Assembly (NCBI GenBank): GCA_022340305.1 | Contig: JAJDOF010000043.1 | Coordinates: 1 to 59,828 of the forward strand | DNA length: 59,828 nucleotides | From: Gammaproteobacteria bacterium | GTDB lineage: Bacteria; Pseudomonadota; Gammaproteobacteria; GCA-001735895 | Direction of reading: 5' to 3' | Part shown: in pieces, positions 19,787 through 30,669 of the stretch | Position numbering within the stretch: the first letter of the stretch is position 1 | How the letters are laid out: each line of letters opens with the position of its first letter | The notes under the pieces: generated by a model | Told to the model about the DNA's origin: nothing | Database searches by the model: none | What the model saw: the letters and a program-made list of their open reading frames with translations, nothing else | Translations under genes and position numbers: made by a program

Positions 19787-20530
19787 ATGTCACAAGATCA
19801 CAGCGGCCAGCCCGTACCCCAAATCACTTTTCGCACCCGTCGCGATCACGAATGGGTCAATCTTTCCAGCGATGACGTTTTCAAGGGAAAGACCGTCGTC
19901 GTGTTTTCACTGCCCGGCGCCTTCACCCCGACCTGCTCTTCGACGCATGTGCCGCGCTACAACCAGCTGGCACCCGAATTCAAAAAGCACGGCGTTGATG
20001 AGATCGTCTGCATCTCCGTCAACGACGCCTTCGTAATGAACGAGTGGCAGCGCGAACAGCACGCCGAAAACCTGACCTTCCTGCCGGACGGCAATGGCGA
20101 TTTCAGCGACGGCATGGGTATGCTCGTCGACAAGCAGGACCTCGGTTTTGGCAAGCGCTCGTGGCGCTACTCGATGCTGGTCAAGGACGGCATCGTCGAC
20201 AAGATGTTCATCGAGCCCGACCTGCCCGGCGACCCTTTCCAGGTTTCTGATGCCGACACCATGCTCGATTACATCGCACCGAACGCCGCCAAGCCGAAGG
20301 ACGTCACTATCTTTACGCGTAACGGATGCGAATACTGCGCACGTGCCAAGGGACTGTTGCGCGATGCCGGATTCCAGTTCGAAGAACTGGTACTGAATCG
20401 CGACTACAGCGAAGCGACTCTGCGAGCGGTCAGCGGCCGTTCCACCGTGCCCGAGATATTCATCAACGGCGCTTTCATCGGTGGTGCAGAAGAACTTGAA
20501 ACTTACCTGCACCGGGCAGAAGCCGCCTGA
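19787..20530 (+). CDS. Peroxiredoxin-glutaredoxin hybrid (Prx5 type)
   Basis: A 247-residue fusion that reduces hydrogen peroxide and alkyl peroxides with glutathione. Residues 1-165 are a Prx5 domain with the peroxidatic Cys50 in [16 protein letters not shown] and the later [14 protein letters not shown]. Residues 170-247 are a glutaredoxin with the active site C181-E-Y-C184, [14 protein letters not shown] (cis-Pro) and a Gly-Gly turn. This is the Haemophilus hyPrx5 layout. AGGAGA lies a few bases before the ATG. It follows oxyR and a candidate OxyR site and is closed by a strong terminator, so it is a single-gene regulon unit. Confidence 0.97.
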
Positions 20531-20541
20531 TAACAGGTCTC

Positions 20542-20578
20542 GTGGGCGACCCGATCGCCGGGTCGCCCACATTTTTTT
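20542..20578 (+). terminator. Rho-independent terminator of the peroxiredoxin gene
   Basis: A perfect 12-bp stem (GTGGGCGACCCG at 20542-20553 with CGGGTCGCCCAC at 20559-20570) with a 5-base loop, followed by seven T at 20572-20578. It starts 11 bp after the stop codon. Confidence 0.96.
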
Positions 20579-20843
20579 AACACCGCCCGCAAATACAACC
20601 CCACCACCTGAGCAACCTTTGCTGGGTCGTTTGGTGCTCCTTTTGACAATTTTCGAATAACAAATAAACCTCGCGGTTTCTCCCGCCTCCCGGAATTGTG
20701 TCCCCGGAATTGAGATTTATCTCCGCGTCTCGCTATGATTTAATGCACCGGGACTCATTGCCAGATTTAAAATAGCAAATAACCTTTATCTCGACCCGTT
20801 GCAGGTGGGGATTTAATTTTCTGATCAACCAGGGGGAGGGCTT

Positions 20844-22637
20844 ATGGCCAGCACAGCAAACGACACGATCAATGAATGGCTTGCAAAACTGAATGCCGCG
20901 TTGGCGAACAACGACAGCCAGCAGGCGGCGGAGTTATTCGCGCCGGAGAGTTACTGGCGGGACTTTGTCAGTTTTACCTGGAACTTGAAAACCATGGAAG
21001 GCCGCATGGAGATTGCCGAGATGCTCGACGCAACGCTCGAATCGGTGCAACCCGCTAACTGGACCCTGGACGGTGACGCATCCGAGGCCGACGGCATCAC
21101 CGAGGGCTGGATCAAGTTCGAAACTGCCACCAGCCGCGGCGAGGGTCATCTGCGCCTCAATGCCGACGGCCAGGCCTGGACCTTGCTCACCACGGCTTAC
21201 GAGCTTAAAGGCCACGAGGAAGCCAAAGGGCCGACCCGACCCAGAGGCGTCGAACACGACTCGCATCGAGGCCGCAAGACCTGGCTCGAACAAAAGCAGC
21301 AGGAAGAGGCCGAACTCGGTTACAAACACCAGCCTTACTGCGTGATTATCGGTGGCGGACAGGGCGGCATCGGACTCGGTGCGCGCCTGAAACAGCTTGG
21401 CGTGCCCACGATCATCGTTGAGAAAAATCCACGCCCCGGCGATAGCTGGCGCAATCGCTATAAATCCTTATGCCTGCACGACCCGGTCTGGTACGACCAT
21501 ATGCCTTACCTGCCCTACCCCGATCATTGGCCGGTATTTGCGCCCAAGGACAAAATCGGTGACTGGCTGGAAATGTATACCAAAGTGATGGAGCTAAATT
21601 ACTGGAGCTCCACCGTCTGCAAAAAGGCCGAGTACGATGAAGCCAGCGGCGAGTGGACGGTCGAGGTCGAGCGGGATGGCAAAACCGTAGTACTTAAACC
21701 GAAACAGCTGGTGCTGGCTACCGGCATGTCCGCCGTGCCCAACATTCCCGACATTCCCGGCATGGATAGTTTCAAGGGTGATATTCACCATTCGTCGAAA
21801 CATCCGGGCGGTGATAAATACGCAGGCAAGAAAGCGGTAGTCATCGGTTCCAACAATTCCGCGCACGATATCTGCGCCGACCTGTGGGAACACGGTGCCG
21901 ATGTCACCATGGTGCAGCGCTCTTCCACGCATATTGCCCGCTCGGAAACCCTGATGGAGCTGGCGCTTGGCGGCCTGTATTCCGAGCAGGCCGTCGCCAA
22001 TGGCGTTACCACGCACAAGGCCGACATGATTTTTGCCTCCCTGCCCTATCGCATTCTGCCCGGCCTGCAGGTTCCGGTTTATGCCGCAATGAAAGAACGC
22101 GACAAGGATCTTTACGATCGGCTCGAAAAAGCCGGGTTCATGCTCGACTTCGGCGAAGACGGCAGCGGCCTGTTCTGCAAGTATCTGCGCCGTGGCTCGG
22201 GATATTACATCGACGTCGGCGCCTCAGAGCTGATCGCCAATGGCGACATCAAGCTTAAAACCGGTCAAACCGAGTGCATCACTGAAACCGGCGTGATGCT
22301 GGCCGACGGCACCGAGATCGCCGCGGATGTGATCGTACTCGCGACCGGCTACAGCTCGATGAACGGCTGGGCGGCTCAGCTGATCAGCCCGGCGGTGGCC
22401 GACAAGGTCGGCAAGGTCTGGGGCATGGGTTCGGACACCACCAAGGATCCCGGCCCCTGGGAGGGCGAACTGCGCAACATGTGGAAGCCGACCCAGCAAC
22501 CAGGGCTCTGGTTTCACGGCGGCAACCTGCACCAGTCGCGCCACTATTCAAGCTACCTGTCGCTGCAGCTCAAGGCGCGCATGGAAAATATACCTACGCC
22601 CGTCTACGGTTTGCAGGAGGTCTACCACACCAGTTAG
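20844..22637 (+). CDS. NTF2-like / flavin-containing monooxygenase fusion
   Basis: A 597-residue soluble flavoprotein. Residues 1-125 look like an NTF2/SnoaL-type domain (EWLAKLNAALANNDSQQAAELF, then YWRDFVSFTWNLKT). The rest is an FAD- and NADPH-binding monooxygenase with IIGGGQGGIGLGARLKQLG (FAD), the Trp-Arg step PGDSWRNRY, VIGSNNSAHDICADL (NADPH) and ATGYSSMNGW near the end. Such enzymes oxidise N, S or Se centres or act as Baeyer-Villiger enzymes; the substrate is unknown. It lies directly before the selenoneine-type genes, from which a 208-bp gap with a palindromic repeat separates it, so a role in selenium chemistry is only a possibility. Confidence 0.88.
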   Translation: MASTANDTINEWLAKLNAALANNDSQQAAELFAPESYWRDFVSFTWNLKTMEGRMEIAEMLDATLESVQPANWTLDGDASEADGITEGWIKFETATSRGEGHLRLNADGQAWTLLTTAYELKGHEEAKGPTRPRGVEHDSHRGRKTWLEQKQQEEAELGYKHQPYCVIIGGGQGGIGLGARLKQLGVPTIIVEKNPRPGDSWRNRYKSLCLHDPVWYDHMPYLPYPDHWPVFAPKDKIGDWLEMYTKVMELNYWSSTVCKKAEYDEASGEWTVEVERDGKTVVLKPKQLVLATGMSAVPNIPDIPGMDSFKGDIHHSSKHPGGDKYAGKKAVVIGSNNSAHDICADLWEHGADVTMVQRSSTHIARSETLMELALGGLYSEQAVANGVTTHKADMIFASLPYRILPGLQVPVYAAMKERDKDLYDRLEKAGFMLDFGEDGSGLFCKYLRRGSGYYIDVGASELIANGDIKLKTGQTECITETGVMLADGTEIAADVIVLATGYSSMNGWAAQLISPAVADKVGKVWGMGSDTTKDPGPWEGELRNMWKPTQQPGLWFHGGNLHQSRHYSSYLSLQLKARMENIPTPVYGLQEVYHTS

Positions 22638-22663
22638 CGGAACCTGGTTTGCAGCCAGAGATA

Positions 22664-22704
22664 AAAGGGGACGGGGGTTAAAGTTTAATACCTCCGTCCC
22701 CTTT
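22664..22704. repeat. Palindromic repeat, family D (GGGGACGG)
   Basis: AAAGGGGACGG (22664-22674) and CCGTCCCCTTT (22694-22704) are inverted around a TTAAA/TTTAA core. The layout (GGGGAC outer end, AT-rich centre) resembles families A and B, but the sequence differs. It may also act as the end of the monooxygenase transcript. Only one copy was seen. Confidence 0.6.
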
Positions 22705-22845
22705 CAATTCGACTCGACCGGGTGATGTTGTTGGTTGTTATCACCGCTATACTGACCATCGGCGTGGATAGCCTGTCACGCTATATTCATTTGCAGCGAC
22801 CCTTAAGCAGTCCTGTCGAACAAACCTACAAACCTGAACAGAGCC

Positions 22846-25113
22846 ATGAAATCCAGCCAGGACAGCATCGTAAAAGACCTCGTATTGATCGGGGGCGGCC
22901 ACAGCCATGTTGCCGTGCTCAAAAAATTCGGCATGAAACCGATACCCGGCGTACGCCTGACTTTAATCGCCAGGGATGTAGAAACGCCGTATTCCGGTAT
23001 GTTACCGGGGTACGTGGCAGGACATTACAGTTTCGATGAAGCGCATATCGACCTGAGGCCTTTGTGTCAGTTTGCCTCCGCCCGGCTGTATCATGACACC
23101 GCTATTCGCGTTGATACCGTCAACAAAAAGGTCATCTGTGAAGGGCGACCTCCAGTCAGTTACGATCTTTTATCGATCAACATTGGTTCACGACCCGAGA
23201 TCAATACGGTTCCCGGTGCCGCTGAATTTACGACGCCGGTCAAACCGATCAATCGCTTCGTCGATAAATGGCATCAATTGCGTGATCGTGTATTACAACA
23301 ATCGGGGCCCCATCGCATAGCGGTGGTGGGCTCGGGCGCGGCCGGAGTGGAAATACTGCTGGCTGTTCAATTCCGCCTGCAAGCCCTGCTGGTGCAAAAT
23401 CAGCGGCAAAACGAACAACTCGAGTTCCACCTGATCAGTAAAAGTGCGCAGATCATGCCAGCTTTCCCCGTCGGCGTTGCACGCCGAATGGAGCGTATTC
23501 TCGAGCAACGGGGAGTCCATGTTCATCGCGACGCCGAGGCGATCAAGGTGTTCGATCTGGGCCTTGAATTAGTTGACGGGGACAAGCTGGAGCTGGACGA
23601 GATACTCTGGGTTACCGGAGCAAGCGCACCCGCCTGGCTGCGCGAGTCGGGTCTTGCTGTCGATGCCGAAGGCTTCATCCAGGCCAGCGACTGTTTACAG
23701 TCGACCTCACACAGGGACATTTTTGCGGCCGGGGATATTGTTAATGTCATCGATCATCCACGTCCAAAAGCCGGTGTATTTGCCGTCCGGCAAGGTCAAC
23801 CACTGGCGCAGAACTTGCGCAGGGCATTGCTAAACCGACCGCTGAAACCGTTCAAACCGCAAAAAACCCTGTTGGCCTTAATCAGCAGTGGCGACCAGTA
23901 TGCAATCGCAACCAAAGCCAACTGGCACTTCGAAGCAGCCCTGCTGTGGAAATGGAAAGACTGGATCGATCGCCGCTGGATGCAGCAGTACACGGAACTG
24001 CCATCGATGTCAGACGAGATGGCCTCCAGTCTTGATCGAAGACTTGCCGATCAGGATACCTTGAAGGAAATCTCTGCCATCGCGATGCGCTGTGGTGGTT
24101 GCGGCGCCAAGGTCGGCGCCAATGTGCTCAGTCGTGCCATTGCCGATCTTAAACCCGCAGCACGTGACGATATCCTGATTGGGCTGCACGAACCCGACGA
24201 TGCCGCGGTCGTCGAGGTACCACCCGGAAAAGTCATGGTACATACGGTTGACTACTTTCGGTCTTTTATCGACGACCCCTTTATCTTTGGACAGATTGCC
24301 GCCAATCATGCCCTGAGTGACGTTTTCGCGATGGGCGCCGAAGCCCAGTCGGCACTGGCGATTGCTACAGTACCCTTTGCCATCGAGAGCAAGGTGGAGG
24401 ACACACTCAGAGAACTCATGGCAGGGGCCATGGTGGTTCTAAATGATGCCAACGCCGCGCTGGTTGGTGGACATACCAGTGAGGGCGCCGAACTGGCCCT
24501 GGGTTTCGCGGTGAATGGCGTCGCAAACCGGGAGCAGATTCTGCGTAAGGGCGGAATGCGCGAAGGCGATCTGCTGGTGCTGACCAAGCCACTGGGTACC
24601 GGCACCCTGTTTGCCGCTGACATGCAGCACAAAGCCAGGGGTCGCTGGATAGAGGATGCAGTTAAATCGATGATCCAGTCCAATCGACAGGCCGCTGAAG
24701 CCTTGTATGCGCACGGTGCGACTGCCTGTACCGATGTCACTGGTTTCGGGCTGCTCGGACATCTGGTGGAAATGATCAAACCCTCCGCTGTTGATGTTGA
24801 GATAGATTTAGCCGCGTTACCACTCATCGACGGAGCGCTTGAAACCGTTGCCATGGGAATTTTGAGCTCGCTGCAACCAGCTAACCTGCGCCTGCGTCGA
24901 GCCATTGCCAATAGGGAAGAGGCAATCACCAGTCCTTTATATCCGCTGGTTTTCGATCCACAAACATCAGGCGGTTTGCTGGCCAGCCTGCCAGCGAATA
25001 ACACCGATGCCTGTTTGCATGAATTGATCAAACGCGGCTATGGTCAGGCCGCTATTGTTGGCCGGGTAAAGGCGCAGGGCGCAAACCTTGAACCGGTCAG
25101 ACTGATCAGGTAA
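22846..25113 (+). CDS. selD: Fused FAD oxidoreductase / selenophosphate synthase (SelD; SenC role)
   Basis: A 755-residue fusion. Residues 1-380 are an NDH-2-like FAD/NAD(P) oxidoreductase (LVLIGGGHSHVAVLKKF, a second nucleotide site VVGSGAAGVEILLAV, and FAAGDIVNV). Residues 410-755 are a full selenide, water dikinase that makes selenophosphate from selenide and ATP. Its catalytic pair is C419-G-A-K422 in GGCGAKVG, with metal/ATP segments DDAAVVEV, HTVDYFRSF, GGHTSEGAELALGF and TDVTGFGLLGH. The fusion type is known in selenium-using bacteria. Its 3' end overlaps that of the opposite-strand senB by 8 bp and senA follows, so it probably supplies selenophosphate for selenoneine (SenC role). It could also serve selenouridine or selenocysteine synthesis elsewhere in the genome. 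Confidence 0.93.
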   Translation: MKSSQDSIVKDLVLIGGGHSHVAVLKKFGMKPIPGVRLTLIARDVETPYSGMLPGYVAGHYSFDEAHIDLRPLCQFASARLYHDTAIRVDTVNKKVICEGRPPVSYDLLSINIGSRPEINTVPGAAEFTTPVKPINRFVDKWHQLRDRVLQQSGPHRIAVVGSGAAGVEILLAVQFRLQALLVQNQRQNEQLEFHLISKSAQIMPAFPVGVARRMERILEQRGVHVHRDAEAIKVFDLGLELVDGDKLELDEILWVTGASAPAWLRESGLAVDAEGFIQASDCLQSTSHRDIFAAGDIVNVIDHPRPKAGVFAVRQGQPLAQNLRRALLNRPLKPFKPQKTLLALISSGDQYAIATKANWHFEAALLWKWKDWIDRRWMQQYTELPSMSDEMASSLDRRLADQDTLKEISAIAMRCGGCGAKVGANVLSRAIADLKPAARDDILIGLHEPDDAAVVEVPPGKVMVHTVDYFRSFIDDPFIFGQIAANHALSDVFAMGAEAQSALAIATVPFAIESKVEDTLRELMAGAMVVLNDANAALVGGHTSEGAELALGFAVNGVANREQILRKGGMREGDLLVLTKPLGTGTLFAADMQHKARGRWIEDAVKSMIQSNRQAAEALYAHGATACTDVTGFGLLGHLVEMIKPSAVDVEIDLAALPLIDGALETVAMGILSSLQPANLRLRRAIANREEAITSPLYPLVFDPQTSGGLLASLPANNTDACLHELIKRGYGQAAIVGRVKAQGANLEPVRLIR

Positions 25114-26059
25114 CGGCAGCCAGAACCTTTTGCCAGGCCGCCGATTCCTGATCTGGCGTAAACAGCGGCGCAAGCGCTCTGCCCTGTTGTTCGAGTGATG
25201 TCAGGAAACTTTCGTCGACTTCAGCCTGGCGTATGCGTGCGGCCAGGGAAATCTCGTCGCCGACCCGGAAGTAACCGGCAAAGTCGCGGCCCAGCAATCC
25301 AATATTGCCATTGATGTCGGAGGCAATAATGGGCACACCCGCAACCAGTGCTTCTGAAACCACGTTGGCACCTCCTTCCTGAAGCGAACTGATCACCATC
25401 AGATTCGCCCGCATATAAGCCTGGCGAACCTGTCCGGCAGATACCTCTCCCTGCCATCGATATCGCGGGTTGGCGCGCATTTCTACCTCTGCCTGCGCGG
25501 CCCATTGCAGACTGTGCGCCTTGCCATAGTGCAACACTCGAATTTTCGATTCCGGTGGTAACAGGCGAGCAGCTAGAGCAGTTCGAAAGGGATCTTTCTC
25601 TTCGCGTAGATGGCCGATAACGCAGATATCAAAAGAACGTTTTGACGGATTTCGCGGTCGCGGCAATGGCAGCGCTGACTGGCGAATCACGGATAACTTT
25701 TGCCGAAACTCGAGCGGTAGTTCTTCTGCGATCAGATCATGCAGACAAACCAGGGCATCTGCCATTTGCATCGAGGCCAGGGTCGTTAGCGGATCCGTTT
25801 TCAGAAAGGTATTGACGTCGGTACCACCCAGGGCTACGACCAGCGGGCCAGCGGGCCTCGCTTCACGATAACGCCGAATCGCAGCTGCACTACGCCAGGC
25901 GTGCAAGGCAATTAACAGGTCAGTGGGTTCTCCATTATAATCGGTGTCAATATTAACCCGGTGACCTGTTTTCCGTAGCAGGCCCGCCCAGCGCGTTGCC
26001 GAAGTACGGTTACCATTCCTGGAATTTTCTTTGGCAGGTGTAACCAGATGAATTTTCAT
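25106..26059 (-). CDS. senB: TIGR04348-type glycosyltransferase, selenosugar synthase SenB
   Basis: A 317-residue GT-B glycosyltransferase. The start MKIHLVTPAKENSRNGNRTSA with TRWAGLLRKTGH is the mark of the TIGR04348 group. LLIALHAWRSAAAI, ALGGTDVN and the donor-binding EGGANVVSEALVAGVPIIAS follow. Members next to senA and selD join selenium from selenophosphate to a UDP-sugar to form a 1-selenosugar, the selenium carrier for selenoneine. Here the gene is on the minus strand between the two partners: tail to tail with selD (8-bp overlap) and head to head with senA (23-bp gap). The known clusters I recall are co-directional, so this layout is odd. Confidence 0.88.
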   Translation of the reverse strand: MKIHLVTPAKENSRNGNRTSATRWAGLLRKTGHRVNIDTDYNGEPTDLLIALHAWRSAAAIRRYREARPAGPLVVALGGTDVNTFLKTDPLTTLASMQMADALVCLHDLIAEELPLEFRQKLSVIRQSALPLPRPRNPSKRSFDICVIGHLREEKDPFRTALAARLLPPESKIRVLHYGKAHSLQWAAQAEVEMRANPRYRWQGEVSAGQVRQAYMRANLMVISSLQEGGANVVSEALVAGVPIIASDINGNIGLLGRDFAGYFRVGDEISLAARIRQAEVDESFLTSLEQQGRALAPLFTPDQESAAWQKVLAAVT

Positions 26060-26082
26060 GAAAGCAGAGCTTACGACACGAT

Positions 26083-27402
26083 ATGACCGCCCTTATTAGT
26101 AACACAAATCTGATTGGCATGCTGGAAAACGCCAGGCACCGGACCTATGAACTGGTTGCCGACCTGGATGAGGATCAATTGCTGGGGCCGAAATATGGCA
26201 CGATCAATCCGCTGCGCTGGGAAATCGGTCATGTCGCGTATTTTTACGAATACTTTATTCTGCGCCAGTTATACGGTCGTGAAAGCGTTCTGGGTAATCA
26301 GCAGGCGGATAGCCTGTATGATTCGATCACGGTCGCGCACGACACCCGGTGGGAATTGCCGCTGCCTGATCTTCGACAAACCAAAGCTTATATGCAATCG
26401 GTGATGGACAATCTCTGCGAACGCTTGCCGGGAACAATAGCAAACGAACAGGACAGTTTCATCTACCAGTTCGGCGTCTTCCATGAGGATATGCACTGCG
26501 AGGCTTTTCTCTGGGGTCGACAGACACTGGCTTATCCAACACCGAATTTCAGTGCGGCAATCGATGCGTCCAGCCTTCGAAGTGCAGCTGGGCTTCCCGG
26601 ATACGTTGACGTGCCCGGTGGTAATTTCCGCTTCGGCGCAGAGAAAGATGCCGCGTTCATGTTTGATAACGAAAAGTATGCACACGGGGTCGACGTCGCT
26701 CCATTTTCCATTGCCCGCGCAGCGGTCACCAATGCCGAGTATGCAGAGTTCGTCGCGGCCGGAGGTTACCAGCAAGAGGCTTACTGGCACCCCGACGGCT
26801 GGGACTGGATACAGAGTAACCAGCTATCGCATCCCGGCTACTGGACGCCACAGGGTGGCGGGCAGTGGACGATGCGCCGTTTCGATAAAACACTACCCTT
26901 GCCCGATAATGAACCCGTAATTCACGTCAGCTGGTATGAAGCTGATGCCTATTGCCGCTGGGCAGGCTTAAGATTGCCCACCGAGCTTGAATGGGAAGTT
27001 GCCGCCCTGGGCGCAGTGGATAACCAGGGCAATCTGTCAGCCAACAAACGACGCTACCCCTGGGGCGATGATGCGCCCACCGCCAGCCTTGCCAATCTGG
27101 ACGGGCTCGCGCTTGGCTGTGTCGATGTGGCCGCTTATGCCGCCGGCGACAGCGCTTTTGGTTGTCGACAAATGTTAGGTAATGTCTGGGAATGGACCAA
27201 TGACACCTTTGCACCCTTCCCCGGATTTTCGGCCGATGCCTACACGGAGTATTCGACGACCTTGTTTGGCAACACAAAAGTATTGCGTGGCGGCGCCTGG
27301 ACCACGCGCGGGCGCATGATGCATGGGGGTTACCGCAACTTTTTTGGGGCCGATCGCTGGAATATCTTCAGCGGATTCCGCACCTGCAAACCAGCCTGGT
27401 AG
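26083..27402 (+). CDS. senA: Selenoneine synthase SenA (EgtB-like, DinB + FGE-sulfatase domains)
   Basis: A 439-residue mononuclear-iron enzyme of the EgtB fold. The N-terminal DinB_2 domain gives the iron ligands H50 (EIGHVAYFYEYF) and H134-x3-H138-x-E140 (FHEDMHCEA). The C-terminal formylglycine-generating-enzyme-like domain runs from VPGGNFRFG at about 180 to LRGGAWTTRGRMMHGGYRNF and FSGFRTCK at the end, with WYEADAYCRWAGLRLPTE and GNVWEWTND. EgtB makes the C-S bond of ergothioneine; SenA makes the C-Se bond between hercynine and a selenosugar. The call as SenA rather than EgtB rests on the neighbours SenB and SelD. No EgtD (hercynine synthase) is in the window, so hercynine must come from elsewhere or be imported. 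Confidence 0.87.
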   Translation: MTALISNTNLIGMLENARHRTYELVADLDEDQLLGPKYGTINPLRWEIGHVAYFYEYFILRQLYGRESVLGNQQADSLYDSITVAHDTRWELPLPDLRQTKAYMQSVMDNLCERLPGTIANEQDSFIYQFGVFHEDMHCEAFLWGRQTLAYPTPNFSAAIDASSLRSAAGLPGYVDVPGGNFRFGAEKDAAFMFDNEKYAHGVDVAPFSIARAAVTNAEYAEFVAAGGYQQEAYWHPDGWDWIQSNQLSHPGYWTPQGGGQWTMRRFDKTLPLPDNEPVIHVSWYEADAYCRWAGLRLPTELEWEVAALGAVDNQGNLSANKRRYPWGDDAPTASLANLDGLALGCVDVAAYAAGDSAFGCRQMLGNVWEWTNDTFAPFPGFSADAYTEYSTTLFGNTKVLRGGAWTTRGRMMHGGYRNFFGADRWNIFSGFRTCKPAW

Positions 27403-27456
27403 CAAAAATATTTCCTGAATTCCGGCGACAGCCGTTAAGCGGTCCCGTAATTACCT

Positions 27457-29349
27457 TCACCTTGCCACGACACCAATGCGCTGTGCCAGGAAATCCCGAA
27501 AATGCATCGCCACGTCTTCGCCATCGATATCTTCGGCGAGCGTTACCTTACCGCCTCGCGTATCCATCGCATGAATTTTAAAATGCTCGATCTTGTCGAT
27601 ACCCTGACCCGTACTTCCCGAGCGTTTGATACTCAGGTGGGAAATATCGGCTCTGTGCAATCGCCGACGATAGACAGGAATGACCAATAAGCGCCGCAAC
27701 ACTGAAACCTCGCCGGGCTGGATACTGACACTCAGGTTGTTGAAGGGCAGGTAAATGGTTGCGCAGGCCGCCACCAGTGCAACCAGAAAGAATGGAATAG
27801 CGAAAATAGTAATGAGTACAGCAAACAGACCACCACCGCTCATCATCCCGACCATCGAATAACTGGCAAAACCAAAACCACCGGCGAATATCGCGGCAAA
27901 CAACGTTAACAACCGGTTGCGGAACATCGGGAATTTCAGCTGGATGCGATTGCCTTCCCGACGCAAACGCAGCGCGCGTGACAACCCTTGGATATCAAAC
28001 CGTCCGCTGGCGATTGCCAACCCGGCGGCATCGGCTTCCCGTTTGCGAGCAGCCGCTGCCTGGGCGCTGATATCGTGACCGATCCTGCCGGAAGTCTCAC
28101 CCGTTGCAAAAACCGGGATGTTATAACTGCGATTCAGATCGATACCCGGAACCTCGGCACTAACACTCAGGCGCCAGAAATGGTAGGCGCCGCTTTGTTC
28201 GACATCGGCCTGCGGCAAGTGCTCCGGTACGTCGAAACGAAACGCCAGGTTAACGCCCTCGATCGTATTGTTGATTTTGGGTTGTCCGCGTTCGGCCCAT
28301 TTGATCGACTCGCGGCGCGAGCGGTTTTCACCGGTGCCGGAGATGTAGCTGTAAACGCATTCCAATGTCACCGACAGATTGCGCGCCTCTCTGGCACGCT
28401 GGTAGTCCAGGTTTTTGACCTGGATAGTGCCACCGACATGCCCACCGATCGCCCCGGGAAAAGGATCCATGGTGAACAAAACTCGGCCGAAATGGCGATA
28501 TTCCAGGGTGCGTTGAATTGCCTGGTAGATGAGGAATACACCAACCGCCGGGAACAATAGTACCAACAGAGCGGCATAGTTTTGCTGATCCAGTTCCCGC
28601 GGCAGTACAAATAAAACCGGGATACTGATTGCATTCCAGATGCCTGCGAAAATCCAGAAAAACAAGGCCCCCCTGGTGGCATCGGATTTAATTCGGGCCG
28701 CTTCCCAACCCTTGCGGTTTTGCCAATCGACCGGCGTAGTATTGTCCAGCCCAGGCTCCTCGGATTCGGCGTAATGTTGCTGACAAAATTCCAGAAATCC
28801 GAGGTTTGATGAACCGTCGGCCTGAGCCCGTTGCCAGCACTTGCGCATGCCCCATAAAGACGGTCGGCGACGCGCCGGAAATTTGTTCGAGCTGTGAATA
28901 CTGGCGTAGATCACCCCGAGGCCGATCAAGATGAATATCGAGCAAAAACCGCTGGCCATTGCGAACAGGCCCCAGCGCATATCGCGGTCGATGACCGCTT
29001 GCGCGGGATTCATCGGATCCACCCAAATCTGCAGTATGTCGCCGCTGCGTACTATGTGGCCGAGATAGGCCTGCATGTCCCGATGCCAGGAGCCAATATT
29101 GTCCTTGAACTCACTGACCCCAACACCGTGACCGCGATAACTGACACCACCGTATTGGTAACGGTAGTGCACGCGGGTTTCGTTTTCCGCAGCGGAGAAC
29201 GACAGCAGACGAGCTTCATTGGGCAGCCAGTCCTGCATGCGTTGCCAGTTTTGCCACAGCGGTAACGCGGTTTCCGATAGCATGAAAAAGCCGCCACCGG
29301 CAAAAAACAATCCGAATAACAGGCCAGGAATAACGAGAAGTCTTCGCAT
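27457..29349 (-). CDS. DUF3592-type membrane protein
   Basis: A 630-residue protein with an N-terminal membrane helix (LLVIPGLLFGLFFAGGGFFML), a periplasmic domain of about 90 residues of DUF3592 type (ARLLSFSAAENETRVHYRYQY then GDILQIWVDPMNP), and helices near residues 125, 225 and 260. Further regions are a long beta-rich soluble stretch and another helix pair near residues 485-545. The function is unknown. The ATG at 29349 directly precedes the signal-like helix; the longer frame to 29493 only reads through a family A repeat end. It is convergent with senA at a distance of 54 bp. Confidence 0.8.
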   Translation of the reverse strand: MRRLLVIPGLLFGLFFAGGGFFMLSETALPLWQNWQRMQDWLPNEARLLSFSAAENETRVHYRYQYGGVSYRGHGVGVSEFKDNIGSWHRDMQAYLGHIVRSGDILQIWVDPMNPAQAVIDRDMRWGLFAMASGFCSIFILIGLGVIYASIHSSNKFPARRRPSLWGMRKCWQRAQADGSSNLGFLEFCQQHYAESEEPGLDNTTPVDWQNRKGWEAARIKSDATRGALFFWIFAGIWNAISIPVLFVLPRELDQQNYAALLVLLFPAVGVFLIYQAIQRTLEYRHFGRVLFTMDPFPGAIGGHVGGTIQVKNLDYQRAREARNLSVTLECVYSYISGTGENRSRRESIKWAERGQPKINNTIEGVNLAFRFDVPEHLPQADVEQSGAYHFWRLSVSAEVPGIDLNRSYNIPVFATGETSGRIGHDISAQAAAARKREADAAGLAIASGRFDIQGLSRALRLRREGNRIQLKFPMFRNRLLTLFAAIFAGGFGFASYSMVGMMSGGGLFAVLITIFAIPFFLVALVAACATIYLPFNNLSVSIQPGEVSVLRRLLVIPVYRRRLHRADISHLSIKRSGSTGQGIDKIEHFKIHAMDTRGGKVTLAEDIDGEDVAMHFRDFLAQRIGVVAR

Positions 29350-29480
29350 GGCCTGTTTAATAGCCGAAATATCGCGTCCTGGCGAATTACACGCATGCTG
29401 GAAAAGCGGGATAGATCGGGTTATGAAGCCAATATCAGCAGCGAATTGGCGCCGCGCGCTAATATTTATTCGGGTTATTC

Positions 29481-29543
29481 GGGGACAGACCACGATTAAT
29501 TTTCAAACCGGGACTCGGCCAATTTAGCGCGAGTTAATCGTGG
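29481..29543. repeat. Family A repeat, degraded right end
   Basis: GGGGACAGACCACGATTAAT at 29481 has its partner TTAATCGTGGTATGCC at about 29533-29548, where the CTGTCCCC tip is lost. The core is close to that of the RAYT transposon at 12830, with the ACGATTA form of the end. Confidence 0.65.
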
Positions 29544-29640
29544 TATGCCATCGAATGCACGCTCCCGATTACGCACTTTATTGTGGATCGCAAGGATGGC
29601 CGCGTGCCGGCTTCGGGATTCGGGGGAATTCGGGGGACAG

Positions 29641-29704
29641 GGGAATTCGGGAATTCGGGAATTCGGGAATTCGGGAATTCGGGAATTCGGGAATTCGGGA
29701 ATTC
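29641..29704. repeat. Eight perfect tandem copies of GGGAATTC
   Basis: An 8-bp unit with an EcoRI-type palindrome is repeated eight times without a change. It is flanked on both sides by GGGGGACAG family B tips (29633 and 29705). GGAATTCGGGGGACAG is the usual outer flank of family B, so the array probably arose by slippage at such a flank. Frames read through it give repeated Asn-Ser-Gly-Ile-Arg-Glu-Phe-Gly peptides, which are artefacts. Confidence 0.95.
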
Positions 29705-29714
29705 GGGGGACAGT

Positions 29715-29830
29715 ATACTGAACTGGGCGCAATTCGATACTGAACTGGGCGCAATTCGGGGGACAGTGCACTTAACTACCGCAAGCGGGAATTCGGGTGA
29801 CAGTGCACTTAACTGCCGCAACATCGTTTG
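29715..29830. repeat. Nested tandem duplications of family B fragments
   Basis: A 22-bp unit (ATACTGAACTGGGCGCAATT then CG) is present twice in direct contact at 29715-29736 and 29737-29758. It is followed by two GACAGTGCACTTAACT copies spaced 37 bp apart (29762 and 29799). All are variants of the family B end. Confidence 0.85.
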
Positions 29831-29979
29831 GTGTCGATCAAGACAGTATCGTCGCACCGTCCAGATGGGTTACTGTCACAGTTAACTTGAATTGGAGATA
29901 TGTAAACTGTCACCCTAATTCGATTAGCGCAACACGCCGATTCCCGTTATTATCTCTGCCTCCCAATACAAGCTTTCGC

Positions 29980-30669
29980 ATGCACCAGACGATGAATCAG
30001 TTACTCGACAACATCACCTGGTTCACCCTCACCGGTCCGCACGCCGTGTACGCCTCCGGCACGCAGGATGCGCGACGATACGCCGCTGGCTTTTCCCCCA
30101 TCATCGGCTTTGCCGATCCTGCGCGTCCCGACTTCGACGCGCTGGCAGCCTGTTGTAAACCCGATGAGCAACTTTACTGTCCGCAATGGAACGGCGCAGC
30201 GCCCGCGGACTGGCGCATTCATGTCGAAAAAGTCATGTTCAGGATGATCTGGGGGGCAGCGATACCCGAAGCCGATGAGTTTCCCGAGGCGACCAGCCTT
30301 GGCCCACAGCATGCGGCCCAGGCGCTTGAACTGGCACAGCTGACCAATCCCGGGCCTTTTGGACCGAGAACCATCGAGCTGGGCGAATACTTTGGCTGGT
30401 TCGAAGACGGCCGGCTGGCGGCGATGGCCGGTGAGCGCATGCACGCGGGCACGTTGCGCGAGGTCAGCGGTATTTGCACTCACCCTGATTTCCGCGGTCG
30501 CGGACTGGCGCGCCGCTTGACCCTGAAACTGATTCGCCGCGCGATGCAGCGCGGCGAAACCCCCTTCCTTCACGTCATGGGCGACAATCCGGCAGCGCGT
30601 CAGCTCTACCGAAATATGGGTTTCCGCGACTACTGCGAAACGACGGCACGCATTATTTCCCTGCGTTGA
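29980..30669 (+). CDS. GNAT family N-acetyltransferase
   Basis: A 229-residue protein with the FR47-like acetyltransferase fold in its second half: LREVSGICTHPDFRGRGLARRL is the acetyl-CoA binding motif (V-C-THP-x4-GRG-A) at about residues 157-178. HVMGDNPAARQLYRNMGF is the C-terminal motif. The first 110 residues are a family-typical N-terminal domain of unknown ligand. I used the ATG at 29980; an ATG at 29992 is possible. The longer frame to 29797 reads through the repeat cluster and is rejected. The acceptor is not known. Confidence 0.88.
   Translation: MHQTMNQLLDNITWFTLTGPHAVYASGTQDARRYAAGFSPIIGFADPARPDFDALAACCKPDEQLYCPQWNGAAPADWRIHVEKVMFRMIWGAAIPEADEFPEATSLGPQHAAQALELAQLTNPGPFGPRTIELGEYFGWFEDGRLAAMAGERMHAGTLREVSGICTHPDFRGRGLARRLTLKLIRRAMQRGETPFLHVMGDNPAARQLYRNMGFRDYCETTARIISLR

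Follow-up and report, generated by a model that had tools for sequence, protein, structure and literature searches.

What does a three-gene selenium locus in an uncultured gammaproteobacterium make, and is the way in which its genes are arranged in any respect unusual? The locus lies at positions 22846-27402 of a stretch of 59,828 nucleotides (the window), contig JAJDOF010000043.1 of assembly GCA_022340305.1. An earlier note on this DNA had interpreted the genes as a senA-senB-senC (selD) set for the synthesis of selenoneine, had named two things as unusual, the fusion of the selenophosphate synthase SelD to a flavin oxidoreductase and the inverted senB, and had proposed searches with hidden Markov models, a SenA/EgtB phylogeny and genome searches for egtD, selA/selB and selU. 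Our results agree with the identification: the putative SenA does not group with EgtB, neither an EgtB over the cut-off nor an EgtD is found in the draft genome, and we place the probability that the locus is a selenoneine biosynthesis cluster of ordinary kind, as judged from sequence comparisons, at about 0.87. Both of the features named as unusual are present, but neither is rare, and the locus is typical of such clusters among the relatives that we examined. The features concerned are as follows.

22846-25113, plus strand: SenC, a fusion of an NADH-dehydrogenase-like flavoprotein and SelD, 755 amino acids (TIGR03169, TIGR00476, Pyr_redox_2 and AIRS domains)
24091-24111, plus strand: SelD active-site stretch C416-G-G-C419-G-A-K422, CxxC plus Lys (sequence; alignment with 3u0o)
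25106-25113: tail-to-tail overlap of selD and senB, 8 bp (selD ends at 25113, senB on the minus strand at 25106)
25106-26059, minus strand: putative SenB, selenosugar synthase (GT-B Se-glycosyltransferase), 317 amino acids (TIGR04348, PDB SenB matches, residues)
26060-26082: head-to-head gap between senB and senA, 23 bp (senB starts at 26059, senA at 26083)
26083-27402, plus strand: putative SenA, nonheme-iron selenoneine synthase, 439 amino acids (NF041186, DinB_2 and FGE-sulfatase domains, tree, pocket residues)
26482-26502, plus strand: HEDMHCE of SenA, the HX3HXE iron motif (H134, H138, E140), the third His being H50 (alignment)
27250-27252, plus strand: Y390 of SenA, a Tyr shared by SenA and EgtB where OvsA has Met
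27334-27342, plus strand: R418-N419-F420 of SenA, a SenA-type substrate pocket, RQA in OvsA (alignment)

The overlap, the gap and the opposite strand of senB agree exactly with the earlier description. All three genes pass their own family models at the curated NCBIfam cut-offs, given here in bits, with scores far above those due to chance. Because the three reading frames contain no inner stops and dN/dS for senC, senB and senA is 0.07-0.14 within the window clade, that is, the window genome (G000, 86.4% complete) and its nearest relatives G013 (91%) and G019 (97%), the sen genes look functional and are under purifying selection. The putative SenB scores 394.2 bits with TIGR04348 (cut-off 300), which bears out the type of glycosyltransferase proposed earlier, and its PDB matches are the SenB chains 8jjn and 8fbx (phmmer, 167 bits). 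In SenC, the flavoprotein part (residues 11-382) reaches 492.7 bits with TIGR03169 (Nterm_to_SelD, cut-off 310) and the SelD part (residues 414-718) 305.4 bits with TIGR00476 (cut-off 125), while the model TIGR04369, 'fusion_not_SelD', stays below its cut-off (493.5 against 700). C419 and K422, described before as intact, align with C17 and K20 of chain 3u0o, which we take to be the SelD of E. coli with these two residues as the catalytic ones. According to the accessible text of PMC2398784, Ndh-SelD fusions have a CxxC motif in their active site, and C416-x-x-C419 fits this report. For the SenB of Variovorax paradoxus, the accessible parts of two papers name N20, R155, K158, E231, E239 and EGGAHV (PMC10891094, PMC10702425); these correspond to N17, R152, K155, E228, E236 and EGGANV (E228-GGANV-233) in the window protein, in which the catalytic and UDP-binding residues are conserved.

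To judge how common the arrangement is, we used the best 80 of at least 530 SenB-encoding stretches from genome contigs, namely those with the SenB most like the window's, one of which (L037) is the relative G019 itself. Since these loci were chosen by SenB likeness, the counts describe what is normal for clusters like this one and not for sen clusters at large. Of the 80 loci, 69 have SenA in view, and in 67 it stands head to head with senB; the gap does not exceed about 60 bp in 45 of these. The two remaining loci carry the OvsA of Vreelandella utahensis, and L099, counted among the 67, has an OvsA-like protein and a 3-kb gap. The cultured species Thiohalophilus thiocyanatoxydans also has the divergent pair, separated by about 0.2 kb. 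SelD is in view in 59 loci, tail to tail with senB in 49 (30 of these within about 60 bp), and is fused in 54; of the five loci lacking the fusion, L045 and L064 are cut by a contig end and L062, L077 and L099 have an unfused SelD. The fusion has in fact been published since 2008 (PMC2398784, PMC2432076, PMC4561486); in the accessible text of these accounts it is by far the commonest SelD fusion (PMC4561486) and, in the Global Ocean Sampling data, makes up almost half of the SelDs of Cys type (PMC2398784), and that text names no specific partner pathway. Likewise, the statement that the genes cannot form one transcript follows from their strands, but it holds for most of the relatives too. Two side observations were made among these loci. 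The unfused SelDs beside SenB in L062, L077 and L099 are only 34-35% identical to the window's, and the genomes of L077 and L099 contain TIGR04345 methyltransferases above 300 bits. Four of the 11 loci without SenA in view (L084, L090, L094 and L115) have SenB and a fused SelD and no SenA in the locus; there SenA may be encoded elsewhere, or the selenosugar may go into a different product.

The putative SenA scores 472.8 bits with the SenA model NF041186 (cut-off 420) and contains the HX3HXE motif that the earlier note had recognized in an EgtB-like protein, H134-x3-H138-x-E140, together with H50; these four positions are H, H, H and E in all 124 aligned proteins of SenA, OvsA and EgtB type. 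OvsA is, as its PDB name says, presumably an ovoselenol synthase that acts on histidine, and OvsM the subsequent N-methyltransferase. In the same alignment, whose 75 SenA-type rows include the two sisters of the window and exclude the window itself, the position of Y390 is Y in 72 of the 72 SenA-type rows that have a letter there (3 of the 75 have none) and in 30 of 30 EgtB rows, and M in all three OvsA-type rows, which have RQA at the second pocket site. At this second site the SenA-type rows read RNF (31), RNY (27) or RTY (14), with no letters in 3, and the V. paradoxus SenA (8ryz/8k5i) reads YRNFF, a pocket type like that of the window. In 44 SenA rows, 108 alignment columns reach an invariance of 97% or more; the window clade matches 107 of these and differs at one (V41I), whereas OvsA differs at 29. 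We also built a quick maximum-likelihood tree from 62 proteins, without bootstrap and with EgtB as the chosen outgroup and root; in it the window protein falls inside a SenA group of 47 rows (support 93), and OvsA (3 rows) and EgtB (6 rows) form separate groups, each with a starred support of 100. From the pocket residues, the near-invariant columns and the tree we conclude that the window protein should be a SenA. Two other sets of proteins were seen in the course of this comparison. The shorter EgtB-like proteins of L156-L168, considered as candidates for a Variovorax-type SenA, have no SenB nearby and were not used as SenA; a divergent EgtD-like gene accompanies 7 of these 13 loci, and the genomes G215, G216 and G226 each have one such protein and a SenA cluster elsewhere. 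The Methylorubrum populi plasmid pMPOP01, a small plasmid, carries senA-senB (L189:3980-6966); at its end this senA abuts a transposase gene of IS6-like type, and the protein's final part, with the RNF site, is unlike other SenAs.

Several observations weigh against a selenoneine synthase. The best PDB matches of the window protein are OvsA chains (8ux5, 324 bits; 8u41, 315 bits), above the SenA chains 8ryz/8k5i with 224 bits (phmmer). NF041186 also passes the OvsA of V. utahensis (L085:11114-12457; 427 bits, cut-off 420). SenA and OvsA are therefore not told apart by this model alone, and enzymes of selenoneine and of ovoselenol synthesis may be confused in database labels. The support of 93 on the branch between SenA and OvsA is unstarred, the EgtB-related signature TIGR04373 lies just under its cut-off in the window (64.1 against 71; it is over the cut-off in the SenAs of L022, L027 and L173), and TIGR03438, the model for EgtD, has no match in the draft genomes G000, G013 and G019. 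Because of the PDB matches and the missing EgtD, we took seriously a rival that the earlier note had not considered, an ovoselenol-type pathway in which the protein would be an OvsA that places selenium on histidine, followed by methylation by OvsM. Such a pathway would account for the missing EgtD, and the sister genome G013, in which EgtD is not found either, does contain a stand-alone methyltransferase of OvoM/OvsM type (contig C33, L188:851-1621; TIGR04345, 211 bits). However, TIGR04345 over its cut-off of 170 bits is absent from the draft genomes G000 (best 37) and G019 (best 31), and the OvsM-type gene that lies directly downstream of ovsA in V. utahensis has no counterpart in the window cluster. 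The pocket of the window protein is of SenA type, whereas 8u41 and the natural gene of L085 have M and RQA; 8ux5, with Y and RNF, is presumably an engineered OvsA variant, and V. utahensis, judged by the near-identical PDB sequence, is probably the source species of the published OvsA. In view of the pocket residues, the invariant columns and the tree, we consider an ovoselenol pathway very unlikely and set it aside. A still more improbable alternative, to which we give hardly any credence, is that the protein is an EgtB of ergothioneine synthesis using gamma-glutamylcysteine or cysteine, with selD and senB as chance neighbours. The protein does belong to the same superfamily and scores 344.7 bits with the EgtB model TIGR03440, but this is below the cut-off of 360, our profile search finds no EgtB over the cut-off in the window genome, and in the tree the EgtB rows form their own group. 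Moreover, SenB, SenA and SelD adjoin in many genomes, and the EgtD of ergothioneine synthesis is not found in the window genome.

With SenA as the favoured identity, the missing EgtD becomes a question of supply. EgtD makes hercynine from histidine. Hercynine is the substrate of SenA (PMC9814287). In the three draft genomes of the window clade, a small and related sample, PF10017 also gives only 11-14 bits against a cut-off of 23. Outside the clade, EgtD is found at E <= 0.001 in 58 of 63 SenA genomes, 54 of them over the curated cut-off (the 58 count two family members, G023 and G035, again). By source, the genomes behind the best 80 SenB loci contribute 44 of 49 at this threshold, one of the five misses being G019, and a further set with SenA in view contributes 14 of 15. 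It is present in 6 of 11 genomes without SenA in view and in none of the three OvsA genomes, as expected because that enzyme uses histidine. EgtD, the normal source of hercynine, is not one of the three cluster genes and may lie at any place in a genome; within the sen locus itself it occurs in only 17 of the 80 loci, many of which are cut by contig ends. In a family sample of 41 genomes, EgtD occurs in six genomes, each of which also has SenB, and in none of the 31 that lack SenB. Besides the three of the window clade, one more family genome, G034 (79% complete, its cluster cut by a contig end), has SenB and no EgtD found. The chance of three misses from the stated completeness alone is about 0.0004, as the product of the gaps, if these are independent and with the question posed post hoc, and incompleteness alone is thus an unlikely cause. 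A gap shared in assembly or binning, uptake of hercynine, or an unrecognised methylase may each lie behind the missing EgtD. A supply of hercynine by uptake from the environment, or by a histidine methylase that has escaped recognition, would be a special case of the selenoneine reading. In its favour are the contrast between three of three clade drafts and 5 of 63 other SenA genomes without EgtD, sen genes that are intact and under purifying selection, and the lack of any PF10017 match over the cut-off. On the other hand, all three genomes are incomplete drafts, and in the accessible text of PMC9732360 the affinity of one ergothioneine importer for hercynine is about 10,000-fold lower than for ergothioneine; we therefore hold this explanation to be possible but doubtful. 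Equally tentative is our speculation that horizontal transfer brought the clade a complete cluster, kept by selection, but not EgtD, and that the clade makes selenoneine from hercynine supplied by its neighbours or by an unrecognised histidine trimethylase.

SenB is found in 10 of the 41 family genomes at E <= 1e-40, 9 of them over the curated cut-off. In quick trees without bootstrap, with taxon labels taken from record titles, the window clade and G023 lie within groups that are otherwise alphaproteobacterial or unplaced 'Proteobacteria'. For SenA this group has 18 rows (support 100, starred), of which 14 are others, 2 of these unplaced; for SelD 19 rows (99), with 15 others and 2 unplaced; and for SenB 21 rows (100), with 17 others and 2 unplaced. 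The SenAs of the sister genus g2, by comparison, group with gammaproteobacteria. Most of these alphaproteobacterial loci also share the window clade's gene order, in which selD and senB meet tail to tail. This placement suggests that the cluster was acquired horizontally from an alphaproteobacterial lineage.

No SelD other than the fused one was found in the window draft genome at E <= 1e-20. The searches proposed for selA/selB and selU were all positive: the genome has SelU (321.5 bits) and a locus with selB, selA and tRNA-Sec (L192:8190-11702, contig C130 of G000). Having one SelD beside these genes, the organism probably uses a single fused enzyme to feed the synthesis of selenoneine, of selenouridine through SelU and of selenocysteine through SelA/SelB. 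A search of six relatives gave no SelA. In G031, which belongs to a sister genus, two SelDs exceed the cut-off: one is fused and adjoins senA/senB, the other is unfused and lies at a different place.

The promoters of the senB/senA pair probably lie inside the coding sequence of the neighbouring gene. A promoter scan of 22600-27700 was not above chance (3 found, 3.1 expected), and a sigma-70-like site within senB (25912-25941, 11 of 12 matches), considered as a senA promoter, was rejected at this chance level and with its -35 box not kept in G013 and G019. No Rfam match reached the gathering score in 20500-30000. Neither do the flanking genes appear to be pathway partners: when seven window neighbours were searched in 99 loci, four had no match at all, and the only one recurring at high identity near a sen cluster was a Prx-Grx hybrid (73%, G023; counted twice, L051 being the same genome). 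The other matches were weak (21-36% identity) or cut at the locus end (58% over 64 residues; L071, L172). Further downstream, 29641-29707 is a perfect tandem array of GGGAATTC in 8.4 copies, followed by a 22-bp repeat present twice at 29715-29758.

These results add a gammaproteobacterial sen cluster of probable alphaproteobacterial origin, and they identify the Ndh-SelD fusion as the usual SelD of sen clusters related to the window's (54/59). They also offer a residue rule, Y with RN or RT (72 SenA-type rows) against M with RQA (3 OvsA-type rows), where the NCBIfam SenA model cannot tell. If EgtD is truly absent, the idea of selenoneine makers that depend on others for hercynine becomes testable.

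How would the cluster work? The SelD domain would convert selenide to selenophosphate, a reaction that uses ATP, and SenB would join selenophosphate and a UDP-sugar into a selenosugar. SenA, as an iron enzyme, would attach the selenium of the selenosugar to hercynine, in a reaction that uses O2, and selenoneine would then be released. The flavin domain of SenC may use NAD(P)H to supply a selenium species or keep it reduced, and the accessible text of PMC2432076 proposes that the Ndh part reduces a selenium compound for SelD. The SenC, SenB and SenA steps are carried over by homology from V. paradoxus, where others showed them.

Compared with known systems, SenC shares its domain order, Cys-type SelD and CxxC with the Ndh-SelD fusion (TIGR03169 plus TIGR00476; Zhang and colleagues 2008), and we see no difference from it. 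From family models and key residues, the window cluster is predicted to share all three activities with the sen cluster of V. paradoxus (SenA, SenB, SenC). The window SenA and SenB are distant from the proteins of that cluster (phmmer scores of 224 and 167 bits with its PDB chains), and SenC in the window takes the form of the Ndh-SelD fusion. The ovs cluster of V. utahensis for ovoselenol (L085, L087) shares with the window SenB, the fused SelD and a related nonheme-iron synthase; EgtD is not found in its two genomes. Unlike the window SenA, however, its OvsA, which has the M and RQA pocket, shares the strand of senB and is followed by an OvsM-type gene. Clusters of Rhodospirillales and other Alphaproteobacteria (such as L038, L039 and L040) come with EgtD in their genomes, unlike the window (for L039 this is no more than a fragment under the cut-off; the EgtD gene of L040 adjoins senA). 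In these clusters the order is the same, with senA and senB head to head and the fused selD tail to tail, and the proteins are 71-78% (SelD) and 63-67% (SenA, SenB) identical to those of the window.

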